Part shown: one piece after another, positions 1 to 13,190 of the stretch
Numbering within the stretch: position 1 is the first letter of the stretch
Layout: the number at the start of each line of letters is the position of its first letter
Source of the DNA: Chlamydia trachomatis
GTDB taxonomy: Bacteria > Chlamydiota > Chlamydiia > Chlamydiales > JAAKFR01
Assembly (NCBI GenBank): GCA_945861315.1
Contig: CAMAUB010000021.1
Location: 1-13,190, forward strand
Length of the DNA stretch: 13,190 nucleotides
Reading direction: 5' to 3'
Translations under genes and position numbers: made by a program
The notes under the pieces: model-generated
What the model was told of the DNA's origin: nothing
Databases searched by the model: none
What the model saw: the letters and a program-made list of their open reading frames with translations, nothing else

Positions 1-150
1 TCCGGAATGATAATTTTGACCTGCGTGAAAGCCTCGCGATTGATAGATCGTAACTGACCCCATATTTCTAATATTGGGTCAGTTACGATCTATCAAGCCC
101 GAGAGCTTTGACGCGGTGAAAATTATCATTCCGGATTTAATCGACTATAA
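1..150. repeat. Palindromic hairpin element, copy 1 (left end cut off)
   Basis: A large imperfect palindrome centred at position 68. Positions 40-60 and 76-96 are perfect 21-bp inverted arms. Positions 1-17 and 119-135 are perfect 17-bp inverted arms. The 22-nt middle segments (18-39 and 97-118) pair with a few mismatches and single-base bulges. The tip folds further: ATATT (62-66), loop TCT, AATAT (70-74). Positions 136-150 are the reverse complement of the 15 bases that begin copy 2 (13071-13085), so a full element should be about 165 bp with 32-bp perfect terminal inverted repeats, and copy 1 lacks its first 15 bases here. No reading frame inside suggests a transposase. This is the form of a non-autonomous palindromic repeat or MITE. 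It covers the 3' end of birA and may also act as a transcript-end hairpin, although it has no terminal T-run. Confidence 0.9.
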
Positions 151-707
151 AACGGTTCAAATCCTTTCTCAAAGTAGAGCTTCAGGTCGTGTTGAAAGTA
201 ATCTGTGAGTTGTCCTAGAATAGCTGTTACATCTTCTTTCTTTTTTAGTTCATTGAACAGCGATGTTGCCGGTTGAGTGATCTTTTCAAGGGCCGCTAAT
301 TCCATGTTCACATTGAAGCCAACTCCTAAAATAACGCCCATCGACTTCACCTGAGGAACTGTTTCACACAAGATTCCTGCAATCTTTTTTTTCTCAATTA
401 AGATGTCATTGGGCCACTTGATTTGGCCTTTAAGATTTTTGTTTTCAAGTAGCTTGGAAATAGAAAGAGACATGACGTGCGTCAGTTGAAGAGGATCGCA
501 TTGCTCACTTATTGGAAAAAAGCAGTAGGTAGCGTAAAGATTGATTCCTTTTGGAGAGATCCAGCTACGACCATACCGCCCTCGAGCAGCGCTTTGCTCA
601 TCAGCACTTACAAGTGTGAGCGCTGCTTTATCAAAAGAACCAAGATTTTTCTTGGCCCACTCATTTGTTGAGTCTAACGTTTCAAAGTGATAATGCTTTA
701 ACTTCAC
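126..707 (-). CDS. birA: Biotin-protein ligase, catalytic domain only (BirA)
   Basis: Biotin--[acetyl-CoA-carboxylase] ligase: it makes biotinyl-AMP and transfers biotin to the carrier lysine of acetyl-CoA carboxylase for fatty acid synthesis in the cytoplasm. The 193 residues show the family blocks in order: LDSTN (11-15), RGRYGRSW (42-49, biotin/ATP loop), KWPND with the conserved lysine (97-101) and GVGFNVN (128-134). There is no N-terminal helix-turn-helix, so it is a monofunctional ligase rather than a repressor. The start is GTG at 705-707, preceded by GGAAAA (713-718). It overlaps the upstream hydrolase by 26 bp, implying co-transcription. The last seven residues (YSRLNPE) and the TGA stop lie inside the palindromic element, and little is left of the small C-terminal domain often found after the catalytic core, so the 3' end may have been replaced by an element insertion. 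Counterpart of C. trachomatis CT725 by context. Confidence 0.93.
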   Translation of the reverse strand: MKLKHYHFETLDSTNEWAKKNLGSFDKAALTLVSADEQSAARGRYGRSWISPKGINLYATYCFFPISEQCDPLQLTHVMSLSISKLLENKNLKGQIKWPNDILIEKKKIAGILCETVPQVKSMGVILGVGFNVNMELAALEKITQPATSLFNELKKKEDVTAILGQLTDYFQHDLKLYFEKGFEPFYSRLNPE

Positions 708-1644
708 GATGCTTTTCCATAAATTCCAACATCATCTCACACATCTCTGTGATGAGACCTTTGTGGAAGAAAGCATGCCCCATTCCAGGAATTAAGTTCA
801 AAGTTGAATCTTGCAATGCTTCATTAAGAGCCATGCCACCACGTGTGGCTAAAATCAATGCATCCTTTTTTCCATGAATAATCAACGCAGGCGTATCAAT
901 ATAATGGAAGATATTAGCTCGCTCATCCAACGTCCTCATCATCTCAAAAGTGGCTTGTGCATGGAGACTTGGACCCTCCCCATACGGATGACGCGTGCGA
1001 TGGTATTGCTTGTCAATGTAATCAATAGCCAATTCTTGATCGACAAGATAGTCTCCATTAAAAAACTCAAGTGCCCAAAGGTAAAGAGGAAGGGCCTTCT
1101 CATAATTTTCTGGAAGAGGGGCCGTGAGGTAGGCGACAGCTATTGCCGTTAATTTTAGCTCTTCCCAAGTAAGAGATTTTTCAAGGCGCGGTGTGATCCC
1201 AACAGGAGCTGTTGACATCAGCGTAAGAGAACGTAGACGGTCAGGGTAGTTTGCTGCAATAAACTGAGAGACCATTCCACCCATTGAGTGTCCAACTAGG
1301 TGCACCTTATCAATCCCATAGTCATCTAGGATAGAGATTGCATCGGCTGCCAAATCAATCATATCAAATTTTTCATAAGATGGACCAGAAAGACCAATAT
1401 TACGCTGATCAAAACGGATGACAAAGTAGCCTGCATCAATAAAGTGCTTGAGAAAATAGTCATTCCAACAATAGGCGTGAGCTCCACACCCATGAATGAA
1501 CAAAACTGCATTATCCTTTTCTAGATTTCCAAAAGACTCAGTCCAAAGCTCTTGATTTTTATTAATAACCATTCGCTCTTCTGCATACGCAGTATGAACG
1601 AAGCAAAGGAGGAGTATGCATACAAGTAATTTTTTCATATTCAT
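682..1644 (-). CDS. Secreted alpha/beta hydrolase
   Basis: An alpha/beta-hydrolase-fold protein of 320 residues; substrate unknown. The N-terminus is a clear signal peptide (basic MNMKK, a hydrophobic stretch, cleavage likely after AYA at about residue 21), so the enzyme should act in the periplasm or outside the cell. Visible elements: oxyanion-hole HG at 51-52, RFDQRNIGLSG (77-87), nucleophile elbow GHSMGG with Ser120, acid Asp261 in HGKKD, and His290 in GMGHAF, so the catalytic triad is complete. The start is ATG at 1642-1644. A second in-frame ATG (1636-1638) would give MKKLLV, also a good signal peptide, and I cannot separate the two. It is the first gene of a leftward pair with birA. 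An alpha/beta hydrolase beside birA recalls BioH of biotin synthesis, but the signal peptide and the GHSMGG elbow argue against that role. A general esterase or lipase is as likely. Confidence 0.85.
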   Translation of the reverse strand: MNMKKLLVCILLLCFVHTAYAEERMVINKNQELWTESFGNLEKDNAVLFIHGCGAHAYCWNDYFLKHFIDAGYFVIRFDQRNIGLSGPSYEKFDMIDLAADAISILDDYGIDKVHLVGHSMGGMVSQFIAANYPDRLRSLTLMSTAPVGITPRLEKSLTWEELKLTAIAVAYLTAPLPENYEKALPLYLWALEFFNGDYLVDQELAIDYIDKQYHRTRHPYGEGPSLHAQATFEMMRTLDERANIFHYIDTPALIIHGKKDALILATRGGMALNEALQDSTLNLIPGMGHAFFHKGLITEMCEMMLEFMEKHREVKALSL

Positions 1645-1748
1645 CTCAACTTAATAACTCGATGTTATAAAGACTTTATAAAGAATTTTGGTTTTTGAAA
1701 AGGTAAAAGAATGATTACAAAAATATAAAGGTATGCTATCCCTTAGGT
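1645..1748. other. AT-rich divergent intergenic spacer
   Basis: This spacer must carry promoters for both the leftward hydrolase-birA pair and the rightward MOMP-like/rodA unit. It is very AT-rich. Candidate rightward -10 boxes are TATAAA (1724-1729) and TATGCT (1732-1737), and TTGAAA (1695-1700) resembles a -35 box, but no pair has 16-18 bp spacing. On the minus strand there are TATAAA and TATAAC boxes near 1664-1682 without a matching -35. CTTTATAAAG (1674-1683) is a perfect 10-bp palindrome of unknown meaning. No promoter can be assigned firmly. Confidence 0.5.
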
Positions 1749-2585
1749 GTGAAATATATTCTTTTACTTCATTTATTTTTATTGCTTGGCGTAGCTGAGG
1801 CTTTGCCAGTTTACAATCCAGCGGCAGCCTCTCTTCTCTCACAAGGAGTTAAATGTGAGGCTCCAGTAGAATACTGCTGTTGGTATGATGTATTTAGCTT
1901 CAATCTTGGTTTTACAGGTTACTATGTTCGTGACCATAAAATGGAACTCACTGGAGCTAAGAGTGATGAGATCAGAGATTTTTCAAAAAGGACAAATGCA
2001 GGCTATATTGCCATAAATACATGCAATCGCTTTGAGATTTTTTCAACTCTAGGTGCAACAAATCTGCTTACGACTATTCCTGCTCGAGGTTTATCTGTTC
2101 CTTTGAATGAAAAAGTCGATGTTCGTACAGACACAGCTTTTTCTTGGAGTGTGGGAGCACGTGCAACTATTTTTCAATGTGGTTGTTTCGCATTTGGGGT
2201 TGAAGGAGAATACTTTAATACAAATCCAAATATAAATTCTACCACAGTAGCATCAAGTGTAGGTGAACCTAATGGACTTAGCTACAAATATAAAGAGTGG
2301 CAAATTGGATTTGGTGCAGCATACCGCATTAATATCTCTTCAGATTCAACTGCATTAATTCCCTATTTGGCAGGTCGCTATGGAGGGACAACTGTAGATT
2401 CAGCAAGTGCGGTTTTTAAAGATCCTGCTTCCCACACACTGATTTTTTCAAATATGAAGCAACTTCGCTCGTGGGGTTATGCCGTTGGAATAACGCTTGT
2501 AGGTTGTGACAAAATTCAAGTAACGGCTGAAGGTTCTTTCCTCAATGAAACAGCCTTCCTAATTAACTCAACCCTCCGCTTTTAA
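1749..2585 (+). CDS. MOMP-family outer membrane protein, copy 1
   Basis: A beta-barrel porin of the chlamydial major outer membrane protein family (Chlam_OMP), 278 residues. The signal peptide ends at AEA (residue 18) and the mature protein starts LPVYNPAAASLL, like the LPVGNPAEPSL start of Chlamydia MOMP. Further blocks match MOMP: NTCNRFEIFSTLGAT, RTDTAFSWSVGARA followed by CGC, a YKEWQ motif, and the C-terminal strand ending in LRF, whose final Phe is the usual signal for BAM-mediated insertion. Seven cysteines suit disulfide cross-linking in the envelope. It is about 110 residues shorter than Chlamydia MOMP (about 390), mainly through loss of the long variable loops. The start is GTG at 1749; a stop at 1704-1706 excludes anything much longer, and no properly spaced ribosome site is visible. 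It is followed after 15 bp by a paralogue and probably shares its transcript. Confidence 0.92.
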   Translation: MKYILLLHLFLLLGVAEALPVYNPAAASLLSQGVKCEAPVEYCCWYDVFSFNLGFTGYYVRDHKMELTGAKSDEIRDFSKRTNAGYIAINTCNRFEIFSTLGATNLLTTIPARGLSVPLNEKVDVRTDTAFSWSVGARATIFQCGCFAFGVEGEYFNTNPNINSTTVASSVGEPNGLSYKYKEWQIGFGAAYRINISSDSTALIPYLAGRYGGTTVDSASAVFKDPASHTLIFSNMKQLRSWGYAVGITLVGCDKIQVTAEGSFLNETAFLINSTLRF

Positions 2586-2590
2586 AGGAG
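2584..2590 (+). promoter_or_regulatory. Strong ribosome binding site for momp-like 2
   Basis: AAAGGAG lies 10 nt before the ATG at 2601 and overlaps the stop codon of momp-like 1. It fixes the start of the second gene and suggests the two are translated from one mRNA. It contrasts with the first gene, which shows no such site. Confidence 0.8.
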
Positions 2591-2600
2591 CGCTACTATC

Positions 2601-3431
2601 ATGAGGATCCTTCTGCTTATCGTCTTAATGACGACCATTGCAGAGGCCCTGCCCATGTACAATCCTGCAGGAGCCTCTCTATTGACAGATGGAGTGATTT
2701 GCACACCAGGTCCCGTTAATTACTGTGATCCGTGGGACTCTATGAGTTTTAACATTGGCTTTACAGGCTGGTATGTTCAGCAACATCCGATGTTGGCACA
2801 TGTGAAAAACAGACCAGATACCATTCATGATTTTTCATATCGGATGAATGGCGGCTATTTGTCTTTGAACATCTGTGATTGTGTTGAAGCATTTTCAGCC
2901 ATTGGTGGAACAAATTTTTCTATTAACTATCCAGCCCAAACATTAAATAAACCAAGTAGTTCAGCCAAGTTAAATGTACGTACAGATACATCATACTCAC
3001 TCAATGTTGGAGGCAAATGGAGTGCGTGGGAGTGCGGCAACTTTCTTATGGGTTTGGAAGTAGAATATTTTGGAGCAAAATCGAGAATTATTTCTGTAGG
3101 AACAACAGAGCTCAAGCGCGTTCATCTTCACTATAATGAGTGGCAAATTAGTGGAGGGGGGAGCTATCGCATCAATATTTCGGGCTGCACAACAGCTTTA
3201 CTTCCCTATGCTGGAATTCACTATAGCCGCACCCATACGAGTTTTGGCAAACATCAATCTTTTATAGATGAAGATGGTGATAGGCTTTTACTCATTTCTT
3301 CAAGGTCACTAAGACATGTGGGCTACTCATTTGGAGCAACTCTAGTTGGTTGTAATAAAATTCAAGTCACAGCGGAAGCAACATTTATTAGCGAAACAGC
3401 ATTTTTGATCAACTCTACCTTCCGCTTTTAA
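2601..3431 (+). CDS. MOMP-family outer membrane protein, copy 2
   Basis: A second MOMP-family porin of 276 residues and a clear tandem paralogue of the preceding gene. The signal peptide ends at AEA (residue 16); the mature start is LPMYNPAGASLL. Blocks shared with copy 1 and with Chlamydia MOMP include NICDCVEAFSAIGGT, VRTDTSYSLNVGGKW, EWQISGGGSYRINIS and the C-terminal KIQVTAEATFISETAFLINS ending in FRF. Seven cysteines are present, as in copy 1, though not all at the same places. The last 40 residues are nearly identical to copy 1, whereas the segments between conserved strands differ strongly, as expected for exposed loops under diversifying pressure. The ATG start has a strong AAAGGAG site. 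rodA follows 25 bp later without a terminator. Predicted role: porin and structural protein of the cysteine-linked outer membrane. Family assignment is firm; which solute it passes is unknown. Confidence 0.92.
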   Translation: MRILLLIVLMTTIAEALPMYNPAGASLLTDGVICTPGPVNYCDPWDSMSFNIGFTGWYVQQHPMLAHVKNRPDTIHDFSYRMNGGYLSLNICDCVEAFSAIGGTNFSINYPAQTLNKPSSSAKLNVRTDTSYSLNVGGKWSAWECGNFLMGLEVEYFGAKSRIISVGTTELKRVHLHYNEWQISGGGSYRINISGCTTALLPYAGIHYSRTHTSFGKHQSFIDEDGDRLLLISSRSLRHVGYSFGATLVGCNKIQVTAEATFISETAFLINSTFRF

Positions 3432-3456
3432 AACTTTAGGAATACTATAGTGAATC

Positions 3457-4593
3457 ATGTGGAATCATCGTTATTTACATCGTATTGACTGGCGCATTGT
3501 TCCTGTCATTATAGCCTTGATGATTATCTCTTTATTGGTGATTTCAGCAACAGACCCCGCATTTATCTCAAGTCCCGGACAGGTTGGATTTTTTACGCCC
3601 AAAGTTCAAAGACAAATCCAACGTTTTATTTTAGGTTGGGCTGTCTATATTTTCTTTGCAGGCATGGATTACAATAAGATTAGAGAGTGGGCATGGATCT
3701 TATATGTCATCATGCTGATCAGTTTGATTGGCCTTTTTTTTGCCCCCTCCATTCAAAATGTTCACAGATGGTACCGTATTCCAGGCATTGGAGTGAGCGT
3801 TCAACCCTCAGAGTATGCAAAGCTCATTGTTGTGATTGCCATGAGCTGGTTTTTAGAGCGTAGCGCTTCGACAGCATCAACTTGGCGCACAAGTTGTCAA
3901 GGATTACTAATTGCTGCTATTCCCTTTATTCTGATTTTCAAGCAGCCAGATCTTGGCACTGCACTCGTTCTTTGTCCTGTCACACTTGTGATGTTTTATT
4001 TGGGAAGTTTACATCCCAAAATGGTACGTATCATGATGATCTTAGGAGCTTCTGCTCTCGCTTTTATTTTGCTTATTTTCAGTGGCGTATTCTCTCATGA
4101 GAAAATGCAACCCTATGTGACAAAAGTGATGAAAGAGTATCAGTATGAGAGGCTCAATCCCAACAATCACCACCAGTGGGCAGCAACAACTGCCATTGGA
4201 GTTGGAGGCATTAAAGGAAGCGGCTGGCGCTGCTCAGAATTTACCGGCCGAGGATGGCTCCCCTATGGTTATACCGACTCTGTTTTTCCAGCCTTTGGTG
4301 AAGAATTTGGCTTACTGGGCCTTTTGCTTATGCTAGTGCTTTTTTACGCATTGGTCTACTTCGGTTTCCAGGTGACCGTAAAATCAAAAGACCATTTTGG
4401 ACGCATGCTTTCTGCAGGAGTCTCAGTTTACATCGCTATGCATATTCTTGTGAATATAGGTATGATGTGCCATCTTCTTCCAGTAACTGGCGTTCCTCTA
4501 ATTTTAGTGTCATACGGAGGATCTTCCATTTTTGTTACCATGGCAGCACTTGGCATTTTACAAAGTATCTATAGCAGAAGGTTTATGTTTTGA
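3457..4593 (+). CDS. rodA: SEDS peptidoglycan glycosyltransferase RodA
   Basis: A polytopic inner-membrane protein of 378 residues of the SEDS (FtsW/RodA/SpoVE) family, which polymerises lipid II into glycan strands together with a class B PBP and MreB. Visible signatures: Trp105 in HRWYRIPG, QPSE (116-119), KQPDLGT (162-168), QWAATTAIGVGGIKGSGW, the extracellular loop YTDSVFPAFGEEFG whose Asp274 corresponds to the catalytic aspartate of RodA, and VTGVPLILVSYGGSS near the end. About ten hydrophobic segments are present. The ATG at 3457 is the only sensible start, because an in-frame TGA lies at 3451-3453; TAGGAA (3437-3442) is a rather distant ribosome site. Chlamydiae lack FtsZ and divide with MreB-directed peptidoglycan, so RodA is expected to be essential. 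The placement directly after two MOMP-like genes suggests co-expression of envelope components. Its stop overlaps the next gene by 4 bp. Counterpart of C. trachomatis CT726. Confidence 0.95.
   Translation: MWNHRYLHRIDWRIVPVIIALMIISLLVISATDPAFISSPGQVGFFTPKVQRQIQRFILGWAVYIFFAGMDYNKIREWAWILYVIMLISLIGLFFAPSIQNVHRWYRIPGIGVSVQPSEYAKLIVVIAMSWFLERSASTASTWRTSCQGLLIAAIPFILIFKQPDLGTALVLCPVTLVMFYLGSLHPKMVRIMMILGASALAFILLIFSGVFSHEKMQPYVTKVMKEYQYERLNPNNHHQWAATTAIGVGGIKGSGWRCSEFTGRGWLPYGYTDSVFPAFGEEFGLLGLLLMLVLFYALVYFGFQVTVKSKDHFGRMLSAGVSVYIAMHILVNIGMMCHLLPVTGVPLILVSYGGSSIFVTMAALGILQSIYSRRFMF
4575..4580 (+). promoter_or_regulatory. Ribosome binding site supporting a TTG start
   Basis: AGAAGG inside the 3' end of rodA lies 9 nt before the TTG at 4590-4592. 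It is the main reason for choosing this start for the small downstream gene, whose next in-frame ATG would remove 22 residues. Confidence 0.6.
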
Positions 4594-5024
4594 GTGACCA
4601 TCCATTTATTTTTAGGTCAGGTATTTGGGAAGGAGGAGGCAAAATCTGTTTCAGCATGGCTGAAGATGAGCTTGATTTTGTCATGCGGTGGACCATTCTT
4701 CCTGCTGAAGATAGTAAAATTTATTTTAATCAACAGATTAATATACCAGAGCTTGGCCAGAGCATGAAAAACAACTTCAGCCTCTTTGAAATTCGACAAA
4801 AAAACTTTTCTATCGAGCTTCAAAACCAGATGGTTGGAAAAGTGTGCGGAAAAGGGGTTGTCGATACAAATATCATCGCCTGGGAATTTAGAGAGCCGAG
4901 TCAAGCATTTGATGGCTTTGAAATCTACCAGTTACAAGGGAACCTAGGCTACAAGATGCGTGCCGAATTTTCCGCAGGTGAAGGACTTCGCACCTATGTA
5001 AACGGAACCATCTCCCCAATATAA
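4590..5024 (+). CDS. Hypothetical protein, beta-rich, coupled to rodA
   Basis: A 144-residue protein that I do not recognise. It starts with TTG at 4590, sharing the four bases TTGA with the rodA stop, a typical translational-coupling arrangement, and AGAAGG stands 9 nt upstream. There is no signal peptide or membrane segment, so it is probably cytoplasmic. The sequence alternates polar and hydrophobic residues throughout (for example KICFSM, FVMRWTIL, FSIELQNQMVGKVCG, GYKMRAEFSAG) with glycine turns, which suggests an antiparallel beta sandwich or small barrel. SGIWEGGGKI near the N-terminus recalls the G-x-W entry of lipocalin/calycin-like barrels, but that is only a resemblance. Coding on this strand is credible from the operon position, the ribosome site and the tight 4-bp gap to the convergent gene. 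A function in wall synthesis with RodA is possible but rests on position only. Confidence 0.72.
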   Translation: MSDHPFIFRSGIWEGGGKICFSMAEDELDFVMRWTILPAEDSKIYFNQQINIPELGQSMKNNFSLFEIRQKNFSIELQNQMVGKVCGKGVVDTNIIAWEFREPSQAFDGFEIYQLQGNLGYKMRAEFSAGEGLRTYVNGTISPI

Positions 5025-5028
5025 TGAA

Positions 5029-8000
5029 TTAGAGTTCTTTGTAAAGCGTTTGGGCGTCTTCAAGGACAATTGGAAGAATGTCGACAAGAGTTGGGAACCA
5101 GTCAAGGCCTCGTTTATAGACAAGACGTGCTGCAATGTGCGCTGCGATAATCGCCTTTTTGTGGTTGGATGGAACACGCTCTAGTAGCTGCTCTTGGTAG
5201 TGGGTGCGCAAGAATTTAGGGCAGTAGTATAGAAAGCACTTGGTAAGAGGATTTTCTGGATTTGACGAGAGCTCAATTTTCTCCAAGTAGGAGATGAGCT
5301 GATCGGTAAACAAATTGATTCGCTTTGATATGTCATCTGACAGGTCTGTTAAAGAGGTTCCATTTTTTTTATGAGTCTCAAAAAGCAGGGTAGCCTCATA
5401 AAGAGCAAGCTCTTGCAGGCGGATCAAAATCTCTTTAATAAGTACTTCTTTGTGTTCTAGAAACTCCTCATCTTTGAGGGTTAAGCCACAAAGGATTTCA
5501 AAAGAAGAGCAGATAACACCCCCTTTATTTGCAGAGCTATCTTTAATAATTAAGACCCCTTTCTCCTCAAGAGCGCGGCGAGCTAAAGGAGAGAGATAAA
5601 GGTTTGCCCCTTCAACAATCCCTTTTGATGTGGGCTCACCTGTCTTTGTAAGAAAATCTTTGTAGTTAGTGTCAGCAAGTGTGCGAGGACGACCACCGCA
5701 GGGGACAAAGATGTCGGCTTTGGTTTGATGCATGTTGTGGCGAAATAGAGCATTCATCTCATTACCAGAAATCCAAACAGCAGTAACGCTGCCATTGAGG
5801 CTTCTCCAACAAAGAGTTTGCTGCGTGTAAGCAGAAGGTTCGCGTTTTGTATCGCGGTCGAGCAAAAAACCACCCTCTGTTAGTTTTTCATAAGGGTAGT
5901 GACGAATCGATTTCCCCTCATGAAAGAGTTTGACAAGAGCATCAAGATCTAATCCCTTTGGATCATTGATGGTGCCAGAGATGTCTGTAATAGATAGGAT
6001 TTTAGCTGTTTGCGGATAGTTTTTGTGTAGATTATAGATGAAATTGCCTGCAACATCTCCATCAGGGCCACCTGACATTTTAATTGTGAAAAGATCATGG
6101 ACTGGATCGATGCCGAAGTGTTTTAACATCTGTTGAACATAGATATGCACTCCAAGGGAGGTCACACCATACTGTTTGTGGTTGATTCCAAGATGGGGCT
6201 TTCCACTAATGAAAGCGCTGCCAGGCCTATAATGATCTTTACTACTCTCATGAGCGATCCACTCAATCATGTTGTTGTGCAAGTTTTCATCAGGACCTAA
6301 ATAGAGATATTCTGGTTTTTGCCAGTAGTCAACAACATGTTTTGCACGCAGTACACCATCTGGATAGCAGTTGACAAGAGAGAGTAAGTTTTTAATAAAA
6401 GAGCGCTGTGTTTGGTAGAGGTATTCAAGCTTCTGCTCCTTGATAAATTTTTCTATTCTTATATTGGTCTCTTCATCTTCTATTCCTGCACTTTCAAGCT
6501 CACGACGAAGAATTTGTGCCTCAGATTCTAAACGTTCATAAGGCTTGAGAAAGATGACGCATTTAGCACCACCTTCAGGGATGTCTTTATTTTTGTTATT
6601 TTGAGTGTAAGCTAAGTTGTAACACTCTGAAAAAATTGTGCTCAACTCAGCTAACATTCTCTCTTTTTTCTCGGGATAAATTGTGCGAAGGCCCCCACGA
6701 GAGAGGTCTTTAAAGCGGATATGAAAGCCAAAATAGTGCATTCCTTTGAGATAGAAAATGGCAAATGGAAGTTCTGGAAAAACTTTTTTTCTGTCGAAAG
6801 GAGCGTGATCAAGATAGTGAGGATCAAGCCGGAATGCAAGGGAGGTTTTGTTGTTTACGTAGAAATTTGTTTTGAGCGTGTAATGAACAAAATTCATCGC
6901 TTGGAGCAAGATGTTTTTTCGCCTGATGTCATAGTATTCATGCCCCGTATCTAACTGATCAACGAGATTTAGAAAATCTAGCCGAGATTGTTCATATTTT
7001 GTTAAATCGTGACGGGAGGGATGAAACTTATGTTCAAATGTTTCTAAGAGTTTGACTGTTAATTCCGGATGACGACACAGCCCCTCCTCAATATGCTCAT
7101 AGTTATAGAGATTGGCATCAACATTCACAAGAACCTGATGAACAAAAGGTAAGATTGCATGCAGTAAACTGGCAAGATTACCCCGAATCAAACCAGGTGA
7201 AACAAATGTTGATTCAATGAGATCAGCCCATCCAAAATATTTAAGTGTCACAACCTCCTGGAGAAAATCAGCAAGATCCGTTGCCTCCCAAGCAGCTTCT
7301 TTTTTTGCGCCATGGAGGGAAAAAGATAAAAGAAACACAGACTCAGTAGTATACGGATTTATATAGGTCGCGTTGACCCGCTCCATCACCAAATTATGTT
7401 GATGGACAACCTTTGCAAGTCGATGAAGGAAATTATGTTTTTGAACATTTTTCCAAGCCATTATGATGTGCATAGAAGGAGAATTGTTCACAGACCAATT
7501 CTCTTCATACTTAACTTCATATTGGCAATGATCCCGCGTTTGAGCTCTCTCAAACATTTCAAGAGCAATGAGTTGTCTATCAATTGGAATTTTTCGCAGA
7601 AAAGGAACATTACATTTAGAAATCAGATCAAGACAGTGCTGCTCTGTTCGATTTGGATTTCGAGCAATTAGACTGCTAACCAACTCTTCAATATGCGCAT
7701 CAGGTAGAGGCTCTCCTACCGTTTCAACAGCTTCTGTGAAATAAATGATCCCGATTCTTAGTTCTATCTTCTTTCCTAAATAGGGGAGAGGATTCCTTGA
7801 GATGTAGCTTGTGTAATTTTTGATCCCATATAAGGGGTAATTCTCCAAGATCTTCACATCAGCTCCAGGACTATCTACGCAAAGAATCATTGCTGAGTTC
7901 TTTAGATGAATTTCCGAGAAGAAGTTTTGAACTTCAAAGCCCATAAGAGAGTGGACGATGAGCAAGACCCTCATCTCATTTACCTCTTTAAAGAAGATCT

Positions 8001-8100
8001 CAGACATGCTCTCTTTAAGCCAAAGGTACATCTTTTCAAAGCGAATCGTCTCTTGCTGAAGAGCTTGTCTTAAATCTGAAGGAGTTGCTCCCCCATCCAT
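5029..8100 (-). CDS. Large NAD-specific glutamate dehydrogenase
   Basis: Oxidises glutamate to 2-oxoglutarate and ammonia with NAD+ (EC 1.4.1.2), feeding the TCA cycle. At 1023 residues it belongs to the roughly 115-kDa class typified by yeast Gdh2, not the 450-residue GdhA type or the 1600-residue bacterial type. About 450 N-terminal residues form the poorly conserved extension. The catalytic part shows FKDLSRGGLRTI (about 465-476), NKDIPEGGAKC (about 505, glycine-rich substrate loop with lysine), SGGPDGDVAGN (about 680, dinucleotide-binding turn), PCGGRPRTLADTN (about 800), GIVEGANLYLSPLARRALEE (about 830) and IIKDSSANKGGVICSS (about 855), so it appears catalytically complete. The ATG at 8098-8100 is preceded by a very good GGGGGAAG site. 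It is the last gene of the serS unit, 26 bp after the metal ATPase. In C. trachomatis, as I recall, rodA and zntA are adjacent with no such gene between them. Confidence 0.93.
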   Translation of the reverse strand: MDGGATPSDLRQALQQETIRFEKMYLWLKESMSEIFFKEVNEMRVLLIVHSLMGFEVQNFFSEIHLKNSAMILCVDSPGADVKILENYPLYGIKNYTSYISRNPLPYLGKKIELRIGIIYFTEAVETVGEPLPDAHIEELVSSLIARNPNRTEQHCLDLISKCNVPFLRKIPIDRQLIALEMFERAQTRDHCQYEVKYEENWSVNNSPSMHIIMAWKNVQKHNFLHRLAKVVHQHNLVMERVNATYINPYTTESVFLLSFSLHGAKKEAAWEATDLADFLQEVVTLKYFGWADLIESTFVSPGLIRGNLASLLHAILPFVHQVLVNVDANLYNYEHIEEGLCRHPELTVKLLETFEHKFHPSRHDLTKYEQSRLDFLNLVDQLDTGHEYYDIRRKNILLQAMNFVHYTLKTNFYVNNKTSLAFRLDPHYLDHAPFDRKKVFPELPFAIFYLKGMHYFGFHIRFKDLSRGGLRTIYPEKKERMLAELSTIFSECYNLAYTQNNKNKDIPEGGAKCVIFLKPYERLESEAQILRRELESAGIEDEETNIRIEKFIKEQKLEYLYQTQRSFIKNLLSLVNCYPDGVLRAKHVVDYWQKPEYLYLGPDENLHNNMIEWIAHESSKDHYRPGSAFISGKPHLGINHKQYGVTSLGVHIYVQQMLKHFGIDPVHDLFTIKMSGGPDGDVAGNFIYNLHKNYPQTAKILSITDISGTINDPKGLDLDALVKLFHEGKSIRHYPYEKLTEGGFLLDRDTKREPSAYTQQTLCWRSLNGSVTAVWISGNEMNALFRHNMHQTKADIFVPCGGRPRTLADTNYKDFLTKTGEPTSKGIVEGANLYLSPLARRALEEKGVLIIKDSSANKGGVICSSFEILCGLTLKDEEFLEHKEVLIKEILIRLQELALYEATLLFETHKKNGTSLTDLSDDISKRINLFTDQLISYLEKIELSSNPENPLTKCFLYYCPKFLRTHYQEQLLERVPSNHKKAIIAAHIAARLVYKRGLDWFPTLVDILPIVLEDAQTLYKEL

Positions 8101-8103
8101 GCG

Positions 8104-8111
8104 CTTCCCCC
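8104..8111 (-). promoter_or_regulatory. Ribosome binding site of glutamate dehydrogenase
   Basis: Read on the minus strand this is GGGGGAAG, three bases before the ATG at 8100, the most purine-rich site in the leftward unit. It falls in the 26-bp gap after the ATPase stop and suggests that the last gene is efficiently translated in its own right. Confidence 0.65.
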
Positions 8112-8126
8112 GCTTGAATTGTAAGT

Positions 8127-10079
8127 TTATTTACGCAATAACCTTAATGCGTTTAATCCTACAATAACAGTTCCGCCTTCATGGATCAAGACCGCAAGCC
8201 AAAGTGGGATTAATCCTAGGAGAGCAGGAAGGGTCGCAAAAAGAATTGCGCCCCCGGCAAGAATGACATTTTGACGCACAATTGACACAGTTGAGTGAGC
8301 TTTTGCCATTAACCAACCAAGTTTCTCGATATTATCTTGTAATAGAACAATATCGGCTGCAGATGCAGCAGTATGTGTCCCTTGGCGGCCCATTGCAATT
8401 CCAACAGTTGCACGAGCTAAAGCTGGAGCGTCATTGATTCCATCACCTATCATGACAAGGTCTTCTTTTTCAGCAAGTTGAATAATATGCTTTAGTTTGT
8501 CTTCAGGTGTTAGATCGGCATAGTATTCTGTTAGATGCGCTTCAGCTGCAATAATTTGCGCACTAGCCTTGTGATCACCTGTCAACATCACAAGCTTCAT
8601 TTTCCATTTATTTTTAAGAGTGGACAGCGTCTCAATTGTCTCTTTACGCAAGCGATCTTTGAAACGAAAGTAGGAGATCTGATCACCAATTAAGAGAAGC
8701 GCTATAAGCTGATCTTCTTGATGCTCTTGATGTTTTATTGCTTTAGTATTACTCACCTTACTGTGGATCCATTTAGCATTGCCCATATAGACACGCTTCC
8801 CCTGGTAGGTCGCCTCAATGCCAAATCCTGGAATGGATCGAAACTCACTAATTTTTGCAGGTTTAGAACCTTTTTCTAAAGCATAGCTACAAAGAGCAGT
8901 AGCAATGGGATGGTCAATATTTTGTTCAAGTGCATAAGCAATGCAAAGGGCTTCCCCAGAGGGTGCGTCAATACAGGTTAAGGAGCCTTCAGTCAACGTT
9001 CCGGTCTTATCCATAGCAAAGGTCGTGCAGCGAGATAGTACATCTAAAATGATACCTCCTTTGAGTAAGATACCTTGTTTGGCGCATGAGCTAATGGCAC
9101 TTAAATAGGCTATTGGGATCGCCAAGATAAGGGCGCAAGGAGAGGCTGCAATCAAAAAGGCTAGGGCACGATAGATAGATCCTTTGGGTCCAAGGTAACC
9201 AAGGGAGGTGAAAAATGGAAAACTGATAGCAATTAAAAATGAGAGCATAATAATGGTCATCGCATAGCGGTTAGTGACCTTATCAAACCATCTTTGTAAT
9301 TTGGGCTTAGTTTCTTGAGCTTGAGTAATCAAGCGAATAATTCGAGTTACAGTTGAATCACCGCTAGAATGGGTTACACGTATTGTTAAAGCTCCCTCTA
9401 AATTCGAAGAGCCAGATTGAACAAGATCTGCAACTTTACATGAAATAGGCAGATTTTCACCAGTGAGATGGACAAGACTAATTGATGAGCTTCCGAAGAC
9501 AATCTCTCCATCTAAGGGGATGAGCTCTCCTGCTTTAACGTGAATCAATGTTCCTGGATTAATATCTTTGACTGAGCGAGAAATTAATGTTCCATCATCT
9601 TGGACAACATGTGCAGATCTTGGAGAGAGATTTTTTAATGAGTGAATAGCTCCTTTTGCTTTTGAGCTAACAGCACGCTCCATTGCACTTGAAAAGGAGA
9701 ATAAGACAAGTAGTAGCCCCCCCTCTTTTCCACTGCCAATAAAGACAGATAAAAAGGCTGCTAAAACCATCAAAACATCGATATTGATTACAAATGAGGC
9801 TAAATCTTGGATGGCTGAAATTAAGGCAGGTACTCCCGCAAAAAAATAAGTTAGCAAAAGAAAGAGATTCACAAGGGAGTCATGTTCTGGAAAAAAAGAT
9901 AAAGTGAAAGAGCAGAGCAAAAAAAATGCGGCAATCAGTGATGACTTTAACTTAATATTTTTTCCCCAAAGGCGAGAAGAGGGGCTAAGAAAAGGACTAA
10001 TGCTCTCTTCCATCCCAGAATCAAAAAAGGGTTCAAATAGTTCGGCAGCTGCGCGTGTTGAAGAGAAAAATTGTGTCAT
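8127..10079 (-). CDS. P1B-4-type heavy-metal export ATPase (ZntA/CoaT-like)
   Basis: A P-type ATPase that should pump divalent transition metal out of the cytoplasm. Motifs in the 650 residues: TGE (actuator, about 205), SPC in the membrane helix IAASPCALILAIPIAY (about 312), DKTGT with the phosphorylated Asp (about 354), MLTGD, GDGINDAPAL (about 545) and HEGGT in the last membrane helix (about 632). SPC in place of CPC together with HEGGT is the signature of subgroup P1B-4 (CoaT, CtpD, PfeT), linked to Co(II), Fe(II) and sometimes Zn(II), so the usual zinc/cadmium label inherited from C. trachomatis CT727 is probably too specific. No N-terminal CxxC heavy-metal domain is present. About eight hydrophobic segments are visible. 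The ATG at 10077-10079 has only a weak GAG upstream. The gene lies 15 bp after a VIT1/CCC1-like gene, a likely functional partner. Confidence 0.93.
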   Translation of the reverse strand: MTQFFSSTRAAAELFEPFFDSGMEESISPFLSPSSRLWGKNIKLKSSLIAAFFLLCSFTLSFFPEHDSLVNLFLLLTYFFAGVPALISAIQDLASFVINIDVLMVLAAFLSVFIGSGKEGGLLLVLFSFSSAMERAVSSKAKGAIHSLKNLSPRSAHVVQDDGTLISRSVKDINPGTLIHVKAGELIPLDGEIVFGSSSISLVHLTGENLPISCKVADLVQSGSSNLEGALTIRVTHSSGDSTVTRIIRLITQAQETKPKLQRWFDKVTNRYAMTIIMLSFLIAISFPFFTSLGYLGPKGSIYRALAFLIAASPCALILAIPIAYLSAISSCAKQGILLKGGIILDVLSRCTTFAMDKTGTLTEGSLTCIDAPSGEALCIAYALEQNIDHPIATALCSYALEKGSKPAKISEFRSIPGFGIEATYQGKRVYMGNAKWIHSKVSNTKAIKHQEHQEDQLIALLLIGDQISYFRFKDRLRKETIETLSTLKNKWKMKLVMLTGDHKASAQIIAAEAHLTEYYADLTPEDKLKHIIQLAEKEDLVMIGDGINDAPALARATVGIAMGRQGTHTAASAADIVLLQDNIEKLGWLMAKAHSTVSIVRQNVILAGGAILFATLPALLGLIPLWLAVLIHEGGTVIVGLNALRLLRK

Positions 10080-10094
10080 AATATACTCGAAATT

Positions 10095-10865
10095 TCAATT
10101 TTGCAAGTTGTATGGGTATAGAGCTTGTAAAACATAATAGGCTACTCCAAAAGCGACTATAGCAATTGATAAATTCCAAATAAGTGCTGGAAGAATTTGA
10201 TTTTTTTCATGGAGCGCAGCAACACAAGAGGCGATGCAAACAACAAAGATACTAGCTATCAACATTCCATAGATAGGTATCAAAAAGTAGAAAAAAGCAC
10301 AAAGCAGAAGGGTACAAAATCCACCAACTAAGGCTCCGAGGCACTGCTTGATCGGATGTTCATACGCTTGCAGCGTCAAGCCAAGCTCCTCTTCAAGCAT
10401 CACCTTGAGCAGCCGGTCATTATCTGCCATAAGCACATCAATGACATCTTCTAGAAGCTTTCCCTCAAATCCTTTTGCTGCATAGAGCGCTGTCAACTCT
10501 TCGCGCTCTTGACCTCGGTTACTTTCAATTTCAAAGCGTTCCTGTTCAATCACACGATGCAGCCGCTCTAACCTTGCCCAGCCAAGTTGCGCGCTACGGC
10601 CAGTCTTCCAGGATAAAAGGCCTACGCCAAAGGCTATTAAAATCGCTGTCATGAGCGCAAAGGGAACTTGAAGGACAAAAAGAAGCAGCCAGAAAATGAA
10701 AAGATAAACGGCAAGTTCGCGGGCGCAATCAGCACCAGCTGAAAGATGACCTGGCATCTCGGTCCCATGTGATTCAGAGAGAGCCACAATTCCTTCAGCT
10801 CTTTTTTGAATAACATGATCAATTGCGTCTTTGTCGTGAAAATGTTCGGTCATAAGCCTTATCAT
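10095..10865 (-). CDS. VIT1/CCC1-family membrane transporter (CT728-like)
   Basis: A 256-residue inner-membrane protein related to the VIT1/CCC1 iron/manganese transporters. Two hydrophobic segments (about 50-85) are followed by a charged helical stretch with the family's cytoplasmic signature: many Glu residues in ERLHRVIEQERFEIES, then LYAAKGFEGKLLEDVIDVLM and LLKVMLEEELGL, which in this family form the metal-collecting domain, and then about three more membrane segments. The N-terminal DG-containing helix 1 motif of canonical VIT1 proteins is not evident, so transport activity is less certain than membership. The start at 10863-10865 overlaps the mnmH 3' end by 47 bp; a second ATG (10851-10853) with AAGG seven bases upstream would shorten the overlap to 35 bp and is equally plausible. 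Its place between mnmH and a P1B-4 ATPase matches C. trachomatis CT728 and suggests a shared role in metal balance. Confidence 0.8.
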   Translation of the reverse strand: MIRLMTEHFHDKDAIDHVIQKRAEGIVALSESHGTEMPGHLSAGADCARELAVYLFIFWLLLFVLQVPFALMTAILIAFGVGLLSWKTGRSAQLGWARLERLHRVIEQERFEIESNRGQEREELTALYAAKGFEGKLLEDVIDVLMADNDRLLKVMLEEELGLTLQAYEHPIKQCLGALVGGFCTLLLCAFFYFLIPIYGMLIASIFVVCIASCVAALHEKNQILPALIWNLSIAIVAFGVAYYVLQALYPYNLQN

Positions 10866-11703
10866 AGTACTCTAGAATGAATTGTACTGCATTAAAAAAG
10901 TCATCTTGATTAATTGCTAAAATGACTTCTTTTGTTCTCTCTCTTCCAAGTTTTTTTTGAAGTCGAGTCACAGCTTCAATTAAATCTTTTTTTGGATAGT
11001 GGGCGTAAAGCGCAATAAGCTGGGCTATCCTCTTCTCTTTAGGTGCTTCTATAACAATTTTTTGACTCTTTTGCATAGCAGCAAAGAGAGGATCTGGAAC
11101 CTTACATGTTCCAATCATTTTGCTCTCATCCTCAATCCAAATGGGACCAGATAGTTTAGATAGACGGGTAGCTAGTAAATTTTCAAAATGTTCATTTGTG
11201 GGCTGTCCAGGAAGTCCAAGCATCCCAAAACTACTGCCTCGATGATTTGCAGCCCCCTCCAAATCAAGCATAGCCTCCCCCATCTTTTCTAGTTCGTGCA
11301 GCCGCTGCGTCTTTCCACTTCCTGTCAAGCCAGTGAGAACTTTAAATGTACGCGGGGCGGCAAGTGTTTCTAAGACCCACCGCCTAAAAGTTTTGTAACC
11401 ACCCTTTTTGACTGAGCACTCCATGCCAGCTGACTTGAAAAGCCACTGCATCGAATGGCTTCGCATTCCACCTCGCGAGCAGTAGAGCTCAATTTGATCA
11501 TTGTAAGCTCGCCCTTCAATGACAAAATTGGCAAGTTTTGGACCAACAAATTGTAGGCCAAGATCAAACGCCTTTTGTTGTCCCAAATGCTTATAGAGCG
11601 TTCCAACCTCAGCGCGCTCATGATCAGAAAAAAGGGGAAGATTTTTAGCACCGGGGATATGCCCCTTTGCAAATTCACACGGGCTACGAACGTCGATGAG
11701 CAT
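10819..11703 (-). CDS. mnmH: tRNA 2-selenouridine (geranyl-2-thiouridine) synthase MnmH
   Basis: Modifies the wobble 2-thiouridine of tRNAs for Lys, Glu and Gln, replacing sulfur by selenium through a geranylated intermediate. Two domains are seen: an N-terminal rhodanese domain (LIDVRSPCEFAKGHIPGAKN at the start, catalytic Cys75 in YCSRGGMRS) and a P-loop domain (GLTGSGKT, 125-132; DLEGAANHRGSSFG, 147-160; IEDESKMIG). At 294 residues it is about 70 shorter than E. coli YbbB (364): it starts almost directly at the DVR strand, lacking about 20 N-terminal residues, and has shorter inserts and tail. The ATG at 11701-11703 is 3 bp after the serS stop. A TAA two codons upstream rules out extension, and no Shine-Dalgarno sequence is visible, so translation may depend on re-initiation after serS. 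Selenium use would need SelD, which is not in this window. Confidence 0.92.
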   Translation of the reverse strand: MLIDVRSPCEFAKGHIPGAKNLPLFSDHERAEVGTLYKHLGQQKAFDLGLQFVGPKLANFVIEGRAYNDQIELYCSRGGMRSHSMQWLFKSAGMECSVKKGGYKTFRRWVLETLAAPRTFKVLTGLTGSGKTQRLHELEKMGEAMLDLEGAANHRGSSFGMLGLPGQPTNEHFENLLATRLSKLSGPIWIEDESKMIGTCKVPDPLFAAMQKSQKIVIEAPKEKRIAQLIALYAHYPKKDLIEAVTRLQKKLGRERTKEVILAINQDDFFNAVQFILEYYDKAYDRTFSRQRRN

Positions 11704-11706
11704 TAT

Positions 11707-12984
11707 TTATTGGGTTGGTATGAGTTGATGTAGGCCAAGCTTCTCTGCCAAAACAGGGGGCAAAGTGACAGAACCATCACTATTTTGACAACTCTCCAAA
11801 ATTGCCACCATCAAGCGGGGAGTTGCCAAGCCAGACCCATTAAGCGTATGCACAAGCTCGGCCTTTCCCCCCCTATCCTTAAATCGAATTTGAGAGCGGC
11901 GTGCTTGGTAATCGGTACAATTTGAAATTGAAGAGACCTCATAGTAGCGATTTTGTCCTGGCAACCAAACCTCCACATCAACCGTCTTTGCTGCTGTAAA
12001 AGACATATCGCCTGTGACAAGCTTTGTAAGGCGGTAGTGAAGACCAAGCCCCTGCAAAATTTCCTCTGCAATTGATAACATCTCTTCAAACATCTCTTCA
12101 CTCTTTTCAGGGTGGGTAAAGGCAAACATTTCCACCTTGTTAAATTGATGCACACGAATAAGACCTCGCTCACCAGCACCTGCAGCACCCGCCTCTTTTC
12201 GAAAGCAAGGAGTGTAAGCTGCATACTTAATTGGCAGCTGATCTTCTGGCAAAATCTCATCAAAATGAAGCCCATTGAGTACAACCTCTGCTGTTGGAAT
12301 CAAAAAAAGAGGATGAGTATCATCATGAATTTCATAAAACTGCCCTTCAAACTTTGGCATTTGCCCAGATCCAAACATTATATGCGGCCGCACAACAGCT
12401 GGAGGCAACCAAAATTCAAATCCTCGAAGCACTTGAATATCAATCATATAAGTTAGCAATGCCCACTCAAGCCTCGCTCCAAGCCCTCGATAGCCCGGCC
12501 ATCCGGCCCCTGAAGTTTTTGCTGTATGCTCAAAATCAAAAAGTTTTAGCTTTTCATTCAGCTCAAGGTGATTCTTTGGTGTAAAGCTGTGTGACTTTTT
12601 CTTGCCAAACTCCTTAATAACAACATTTTTCTCTTTGTCCTGAGAGATCAAAACATCATCCATAGGCAAGTTTGGAATACGAGAGAGCGCATCGACAAAT
12701 TTCGCTTCAACGTCGGCAAGAACATGATGAAGAGTAGAGATCTGCTCGCCAATAGAGCGAACCTCACTCATCAGCTTTTCAGCAGATTCTCCCTGCTTTT
12801 TGAGCTCTCCAACTTTTTTAGAGTCGCTATTGCGCTTATTTTGCAGCTCTTCAACTTCTATTTTGAGCGCACGCACCTTTTCATCGAGCATAAGCACGTC
12901 GCCAAGATCAAGCGTTGGCTCCTTTCTACGAATTTTTTCAAGGATAGCAGCATGGTTTTTGCGTATCAATTTAATGTCTAGCAT
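11707..12984 (-). CDS. serS: Serine--tRNA ligase
   Basis: Charges tRNA-Ser with serine (class II aminoacyl-tRNA synthetase, also used for tRNA-Sec). At 425 residues it has the usual length. The N-terminal 100 or so residues form the tRNA-binding antiparallel coiled coil, rich in Lys and Glu heptads (LIRKNHAAILEKIRR, EVEELQNKRNSDSKKVGELK). The catalytic core has motif 1 around FWLPPAVVRPHIMFGSGQMP, motif 2 CFRKEAGAAGAGERGLIRVH (about 260) and motif 3 LNGSGLATPRLMVAILE (about 380). NGSGLATPR replaces the NGTALAVGR more familiar from E. coli. The ATG at 12982-12984 has no Shine-Dalgarno site; a promoter lies only 11 bp upstream, so the mRNA may be nearly leaderless. First gene of the leftward five-gene unit. 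Counterpart of C. trachomatis CT729. Confidence 0.97.
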   Translation of the reverse strand: MLDIKLIRKNHAAILEKIRRKEPTLDLGDVLMLDEKVRALKIEVEELQNKRNSDSKKVGELKKQGESAEKLMSEVRSIGEQISTLHHVLADVEAKFVDALSRIPNLPMDDVLISQDKEKNVVIKEFGKKKSHSFTPKNHLELNEKLKLFDFEHTAKTSGAGWPGYRGLGARLEWALLTYMIDIQVLRGFEFWLPPAVVRPHIMFGSGQMPKFEGQFYEIHDDTHPLFLIPTAEVVLNGLHFDEILPEDQLPIKYAAYTPCFRKEAGAAGAGERGLIRVHQFNKVEMFAFTHPEKSEEMFEEMLSIAEEILQGLGLHYRLTKLVTGDMSFTAAKTVDVEVWLPGQNRYYEVSSISNCTDYQARRSQIRFKDRGGKAELVHTLNGSGLATPRLMVAILESCQNSDGSVTLPPVLAEKLGLHQLIPTQ

Positions 12985-12995
12985 AATGGTTTATT

Positions 12996-13024
12996 ACTAT
13001 ATGCGAAATTTGATAGAGCAACAA
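12996..13024 (-). promoter_or_regulatory. Sigma70/sigma66-type promoter of the serS unit
   Basis: On the minus strand, TTGTTG (13024-13019) and TATAGT (13001-12996) are separated by exactly 17 bp. The -10 box matches five of six consensus bases and the -35 box keeps TTG. Only 11 bp separate the -10 box from the serS ATG, so the transcript would start about 3-6 nt before the gene. Everything down to the glutamate dehydrogenase could be read from here. Confidence 0.6.
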
Positions 13025-13045
13025 TACTTTTTTATGCGCTACGCA

Positions 13046-13062
13046 CTCTCCCTTGGGGAGAA
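13046..13062. other. Short GC-rich inverted repeat upstream of serS
   Basis: TCTCCC (13047-13052), a three-base TTG loop and GGGAGA (13056-13061) form a compact 6-bp hairpin in otherwise AT-rich DNA, about 10 bp from the palindromic element. No T-run follows on either strand, so it is not a standard terminator. It may be a remnant of another repeat or the end of a neighbouring transcript. Confidence 0.35.
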
Positions 13063-13070
13063 GGGTCGGC

Positions 13071-13190
13071 TTATAGTCGATTAAATCCGGAATGATAATT
13101 TTGACCTGCGTGAAAGCCTCGCGATTGATAGATCGTAACTGACCCAATATTAGAAATATGGGGTCAGTTACGATCTATCAAGCCCGAGAG
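13071..13190. repeat. Palindromic hairpin element, copy 2 (right end cut off)
   Basis: Same element and same outer orientation as positions 1-105, with 15 further bases of the left terminus (TTATAGTCGATTAAA, 13071-13085) that copy 1 lacks in this window. From 13086 to 13190 it is identical to copy 1 except at five positions in the tip (13146, 13152-13154 and 13160), all explained if the 15-bp centre (13146-13160) is inverted. It lies 46 bp upstream of the serS -35 box, and the window ends before its right arm is complete. Confidence 0.9.

Follow-up and report, generated by a model that had tools for sequence, protein, structure and literature searches.

The 13,190-bp stretch of DNA analyzed here (the window) is a complete Chlamydiales contig, to which alone the SerS and BirA proteins are each assigned, and it carries at both ends a copy of a repeat that is a non-autonomous hairpin miniature inverted-repeat transposable element (MITE) of approximately 163 bp with TATA ends. 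Over the sequence that the two copies have in common, they differ only in the orientation of the hairpin centre. We consider it probable that the window holds a pair of MITE insertions, that DNA polymerase switched templates at the hairpin, and that the second copy underwent a recent inversion. Comparison with relatives in other chlamydial genomes indicates that loop inversion in this MITE is real and recurrent but rare.

Copy 1 occupies positions 1..149 and copy 2 positions 13072..13190, both on the + strand, and the former was delimited by a repeat search, by the end motif CTATA at 145-149 and by its relatives. About 149 of the approximately 163 bp are present in copy 1, whose left end is cut by the contig start, and about 119 in copy 2, whose right end is cut by the contig end, so that if the window copies are 163 bp long as in the relatives, about 14 bp are missing from copy 1 and about 44 bp from copy 2. 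The contig thus starts and stops inside the element, as would be expected from the breaking of assemblies at a high-copy repeat. In copy 1, the centre (61..75, CATATTTCTAATATT) has the usual orientation and lies between a left inner arm (40..60) and a right inner arm (76..96), which are perfect 21-bp complements; outside these are the asymmetric mid and outer segments, the left one (18..39, GACC...GTGAAAGCC) of type L and the right one (97..118, GAGAGCTTTGAC) of type R, and the right terminal inverted repeat (115..149). The corresponding parts of copy 2 are the left terminal inverted repeat (13072..13106, beginning with TATAG), the inner arms (13125..13145 and 13161..13181) and the centre (13146..13160, AATATTAGAAATATG), which is inverted; all these features are on the + strand. 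The outer 15 bp at 136-150 pair with 13071-13085, and the repeat search found the 36 nucleotides (nts) of 115-150 to be 97% complementary to 13071-13106. When 1-149 was folded as single-stranded DNA, one long hairpin of -58.5 kcal/mol was obtained (z = -18.3; none of 200 shuffles was as good).

The near-identity of 1-105 and 13086-13190 reported in the original prediction, which was made from the window alone, was reproduced, with mismatches at five aligned positions only (61, 67, 68, 69 and 75). Its explanation by a single inversion holds as well, because all five mismatches disappear when the centre 61-75 of one copy is reverse-complemented, giving 105/105 identity. For five substitutions to produce precisely this combination of sites and bases by chance, the probability is approximately 4 × 10⁻¹¹. 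The window copies therefore show the pattern of a template-switch loop inversion, in which the centre is reverse-complemented between perfect arms and the rest is unchanged. Two other parts of the prediction needed revision. An inverted tract of 15 bp, 61-75, does suffice, but it is only the smallest of 22 nested intervals, the largest being 40-96, that fit equally well owing to the perfect complementarity of 40-60 and 76-96, and the tract length is accordingly 15-57 bp. Similarly, the repeat pair itself stood, but the repeat is longer than had been described, and the insertion of both copies into genes had been overlooked.

Window copy 1, the majority of copies in genome G055, and the copies L020 and L040 of genome G094 are all arranged as left arm, then CATATTTCTAATATT, then right arm, and for this reason we took window copy 2 as the derived form. 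Because the window copies are otherwise identical over the common 105 bp, the inversion in copy 2 is recent.

The family was characterized by searches against 232 genomes. With the window copy as the query, matches were found in 50 of the 232 genomes of the order (E ≤ 0.01), and with the core of a relative as the query, in 71 of 232 Chlamydiota genomes (E ≤ 0.001). The exact arm sequences of the window had no match in the genome-contig and viral-contig collections, according to a pattern scan, or in plasmids. Near-identical copies within single genomes are many. In G229, the element lies at 30 separate loci, and together with those of G036 these are the many dispersed copies expected of a MITE. 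Among the 29 G229 copies with both ends, the length was 163 bp in 26, 162 bp in two and 164 bp in one, and the ends were TATACT at 27/29 on the left and AGTATA at 27/29 on the right. In G036, a 21-base end motif (at most 2 mismatches) occurred 261 times in forward and 247 times in reverse orientation, as against 0 for the reversed control motif. Within 1.2 Mb of this genome, 108 pairs of ends lay less than 3 kb apart, of which 28 spanned 161-164 bp, 20 spanned 48-55 bp and 17 spanned 63-82 bp; another 7 were overlapping ends, and 19 were spaced more than 230 bp apart. The short pairs of 48-55 bp and 63-82 bp are probably internal deletion forms. Short length, non-coding sequence and terminal inverted repeats, which are the other properties of a MITE, also apply to the window, where no open reading frame (ORF) of 80 amino acids or more was found inside either copy. 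The family probably inserts at TA. A likely empty site, at the protein level, is the ribD gene of the related locus L001, and the right flank of copy 2 is beyond the contig.

Regarding the mobility of the element, we found in G229 an insertion sequence (L390:952-2070) with an open frame of 353 amino acids that matches IS630 transposases (NF033545, 219.8 bits, cut-off 100). The MITE end has 20 of 26 positions in common with the left inverted repeat of this insertion sequence, by hand count, and 21 of 26 (5 mismatches) with the right one. DDE_3 matches numbered 11 in G055 and 3 in G229. Judging from the likeness of the ends, the enzymes that move the MITE are most likely transposases of the IS630 family with similar ends, and the element is most likely copied round the genome by a transposase acting on its ends, not by the hairpin itself. 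As a separate observation, the MITE centre at two loci of G055 (L085 and L086) is interrupted by the same foreign sequence, and contig C30 has a DDE_3 (IS630) match next to L085.

We then counted the orientation of the centre relative to the arms in the retrieved loci, in stretches of G036 and in the window, using the centres that fit a simple pattern. Arms were typed as L when AAAGC was followed by A, C or G, and as R when the sequence was AAAGCTC or AAAGCTT. The 227 centres thus obtained came from 45 sets, of which 44 are genomes and one is the window. After exclusion of 36 symmetric centres, 191 asymmetric ones remained, 72 of which had one or both arms untyped, among them window copy 2 with its truncated right arm, leaving 119 for scoring. 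With the centre set to one orientation, the arms of these 119 copies were LR (usual) in 83, RL (inverted) in 23, LL in 11 and RR in 2, although the excess of LR may be favored by the method, since copies were retrieved with usual-orientation queries and scoring was limited to 40 candidates per genome. The ratio of 83:23 departs from 50:50 with a binomial p of 4 × 10⁻⁹ on the assumption of independent copies, which they are not. A fixed orientation in all other copies had been named beforehand as the outcome that would speak against the original prediction, and it was not seen: 23 of the 106 copies with unlike arms were inverted, and these occurred in 10 of the 29 informative sets. Among the 29 sets, defined as those containing at least one LR or RL copy, 19 had LR only, 4 had RL only (G084, G086, G103 and G122) and 6 had both, so that both orientations exist within each of the genomes G036, G055, G080, G081, G087 and G090. 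Usual and inverted centres were found on the same end type in G036, G055 and G090, as judged from a tabulation of end types that covers part of the G036, G229 and G055 copies. Inversions also lie inside contigs, for example in G036 on C6 near 53.8 kb and on C11 near 351 kb. Window copy 2 adds one more inversion to those counted, and two half copies at contig ends in G055 (L084 and L089), which are also outside the count, look inverted as well. These results indicate that the centre turns relative to the arms repeatedly and is not at equilibrium.

The mechanism that we propose is as follows. A long imperfect hairpin would be prone to switching of DNA polymerase between its two arms as templates. 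Two hops within the perfect inner arms would leave the centre reverse-complemented, whereas hops elsewhere would copy one arm onto the other, and window copy 2 is probably the product of a single recent inversion by such hops. Strand switching of the polymerase at the hairpin was one of the causes put forward in the original prediction, and it gives the best fit to arm copying, mosaic arms and imprecise inversions. Arm homogenisation, which is expected of template-switch repeats, recurs as the LL and RR classes (11 and 2 of 119), and in G036 the right half of L163 and L168 mirrors the left half at 74 of 74 bases. Three loci of G055 (L074, L075 and L077) have a mosaic arm composed of an R mid part and an L outer part. 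Inversion was accompanied by the loss of 14 bases of one inner arm at L088, and by approximately 14 extra bases beside the inverted centre at L175. From the copied arms, the mosaic arms and these imprecise inversions, we infer that template switching rather than recombination caused the inversions. The same pair of outcomes, arm homogenisation and spacer inversion, is attributed to template switching in yeast genes by Abraham and Hazkani-Covo (PMC8604942), and loop inversion in rRNA hairpins is described with bacterial examples (PMC8794818).

Several observations weigh against this interpretation. G229, which has the most scored copies of any genome, was uniform, with 23 of 23 copies in one orientation and the same centre in all 30 copies that were aligned. 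In G087, the usual and inverted copies differ in their ends, and the inverted state there may therefore be inherited and amplified; in G087, G084, G103 and G122, it may come from few inherited events. A comparison of flanks, which gave 30 matches, all but one within a genome, revealed no orthologous site at which both orientations occur. The perfect stem beside the centre was no longer in inverted than in usual copies (median 6 versus 9). As for the transposase, no DDE_3 (IS630) match was found in G036 or G094, where the mover is thus unproven, and no transposase was seen by eye between the ends in 12 of the 19 G036 pairs more than 230 bp apart, the ORFs of which were not library-scanned. Finally, ectopic homologous gene conversion would leave marks similar to those of template switching.

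In such a conversion, two copies would pair in the opposite sense, left arm with right arm, the centre would be converted in flipped form, and longer tracts would homogenise the arms. The copies are indeed numerous and nearly identical within a genome, those of the window are identical outside the centre, and arm homogenisation is present. However, the perfect homology on each side of the window centre is only 21 bp, which is short for RecA exchange, and inversions with an arm deletion (L088) or duplication (L175) are not expected from conversion. We therefore hold this explanation to be unlikely. The same two imprecise loci bear on the possibility of a programmed switch in which the centre is turned by a site-specific invertase. 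An invertible centre flanked by perfect inverted arms in the window, and the presence of both orientations in six genomes and the window, are what such an enzyme would produce, but one orientation is in strong excess (83 to 23 overall and 23 to 0 in G229), the inner arm sequences vary between genomes, and inversion at precise, conserved sites was not found. A recombinase match was obtained for none of the 10 window proteins scanned, host recombinases not having been searched for. An invertase is thus very improbable. The description of the element as a flipping or actively copied DNA hairpin was not supported: the orientations depart widely from 50:50 (83:23), a fast switch is unlikely given the uniformity of G229, and L088 and L175 are imprecise in the manner of mutation.

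It is also conceivable that the inverted centre of copy 2 arose artificially, during assembly or amplification, from a palindrome located where a contig ends. Copy 2 is indeed located at such a place, it has perfectly palindromic arms, and serS and birA come from one contig only. Nevertheless, the distance from the asymmetric left mid segment to the centre is only 21 bp, so ordinary short reads fix their order; the element begins with TATAG within ribD, unlike a random chimera point; and the same kind of inversion lies inside contigs elsewhere, such as C6 and C11 of G036. We consider an artefact quite improbable, and polymerase template switching remains the interpretation that we prefer for both the window and the family.

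The comparison of loci further revealed a similar core, comprising an AAAGC mid segment with a one-base bulge, an inner palindrome and a CATATT...AATATT centre, on at least three types of ends, which are TATA..., AGGAACTGTGCAACAATAA... and GTACACTGTAAGG.... The same core with unlike terminal repeats was found even within one genome, in the pairs L029/L100 (G077), L034/L292 (G080) and L038/L094 (G076). Furthermore, unlike arms are kept in 132 of the 149 copies with both arms typed despite recurring arm copying, and for this reason the bulge and mismatch may be under selection, for example by a protein reading one folded single strand. On a speculative proposal, to which we assign a low probability, the hairpin core and not the ends would be the conserved unit, and arm copying might bring in new ends from different transposon families. 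Separately, in the G229 loci L359-L388, the inner arms seem to vary in pairs, for example GATTTTAAG with CTTAAAATC versus GATCTTAAG with CTTAAGATC, by eye and uncounted.

Both window copies affect genes. The ribD frame (5′ fragment, 13001..13084, + strand) starts at 13001 and runs for 24 codons (MRNLIEQQYFFMRYALSLGEKGRL) that are alike to the ribD of L001, after which the element begins at TATAG and leads to a stop, whereas L001 continues there with RLTAPPNPWVG. The gene, which functions in riboflavin synthesis, is thus interrupted by MITE copy 2 after codon 24, with the remainder outside the contig; the identity of ribD in L001 is given by a TIGR00326 match of 294.2 bits (cut-off 156.35). At the other end, birA (biotin-protein ligase, 126..707, - strand) obtains a new C-terminus from the end of MITE copy 1 (126-150), which supplies the terminal codons YSRLNPE and the stop. 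A chimeric or fold-back contig was considered since the birA end reappears inverted beside ribD, and was dropped when the G094 copies placed those 15 bp in the element end. On the same ground, the likeness of the birA C-terminus to that in L001 was taken as chance. L001 has the same gene order: ribD and serS are divergent, and birA lies at the far end. The protein-family scan of the window identified serS, mnmH, a heavy-metal P-type ATPase, a rodA/ftsW relative and birA, and a protein of 1023 amino acids had weak glutamate-dehydrogenase matches. The best relative of the window, determined from the best segment of this 1023-residue protein, was Chlamydiales bacterium SP4CHLAM17 (69%), and the window was placed in Chlamydiales on the basis of gene content and relatives. 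At 1749-3431, two adjoining related proteins of 278 and 276 amino acids have a common 113-nt repeat (73%) near their ends, with no NCBIfam match. At the gathering threshold, an Rfam search of the window gave 0 matches, and no known structured RNA was thereby recognized.

Elements of this kind and mutations of this kind are both already known. RUP of Streptococcus pneumoniae, for which IS630-Spn1 is the proposed mobiliser, is likewise a short non-coding multicopy repeat with TA ends and IS630-like ends, and its tie to IS630-Spn1 is the same kind of argument as the likeness of the IS630 and MITE ends in G229 (PMC2229807). RUP is, however, 107 bp long with a 9-bp contiguous terminal repeat (PMC2229807), whereas the chlamydial MITE is approximately 163 bp long, with arms that pair along nearly its entire length, and has a conserved inner core and inversions of the centre; this distinction is made from descriptions, the sequences being uncompared. 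Rickettsia palindromic elements, as presented in the same source, are palindromes of 105-146 bp in obligate intracellular bacteria, some of them intragenic, as in the chlamydial MITE (PMC2229807). They are described as fused in frame within proteins, whereas chlamydial copy 2 brings ribD to a stop and copy 1 does no more than give birA a new end. Inverted repeats of S. cerevisiae show both spacer inversion and arm homogenisation, as does the chlamydial MITE, but the cases reported there lie in single genes and have spacers of 2-5 bp between arms of approximately 10-16 bp (PMC8604942), compared with a 15-bp centre in a multi-copy bacterial mobile element. In rRNA hairpins, including bacterial cases, loops are inverted by one template-switch event, as proposed for the MITE centre, but these loops are mostly of four nucleotides and in conserved genes (PMC8794818), and the chlamydial tract is longer and lies in a transposon. 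In the accessible portions of open-licence papers on chlamydial MITEs and palindromic repeats (for example PMC3733652, PMC9723776 and PMC2878342), the family is undescribed, a description elsewhere being possible; among these, the Waddlia genome paper tallies repeats of more than 200 bp, and would therefore miss an element of 163 bp (PMC2878342). The element family is thus apparently undescribed.

The interest of the present results is that a known kind of mutation meets a widespread, many-copy element family. The family occurs in about a third of the Chlamydiota genomes examined (71 of 232) and breaks both assemblies and genes, the latter exemplified here by ribD. The most unusual lead is the occurrence of one core on several unlike end types. 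With many near-identical copies that have built-in orientation marks, the family constitutes a natural record of template switching at long bacterial palindromes, and complete genomes could yield the relative rates of loop inversion and arm copying.

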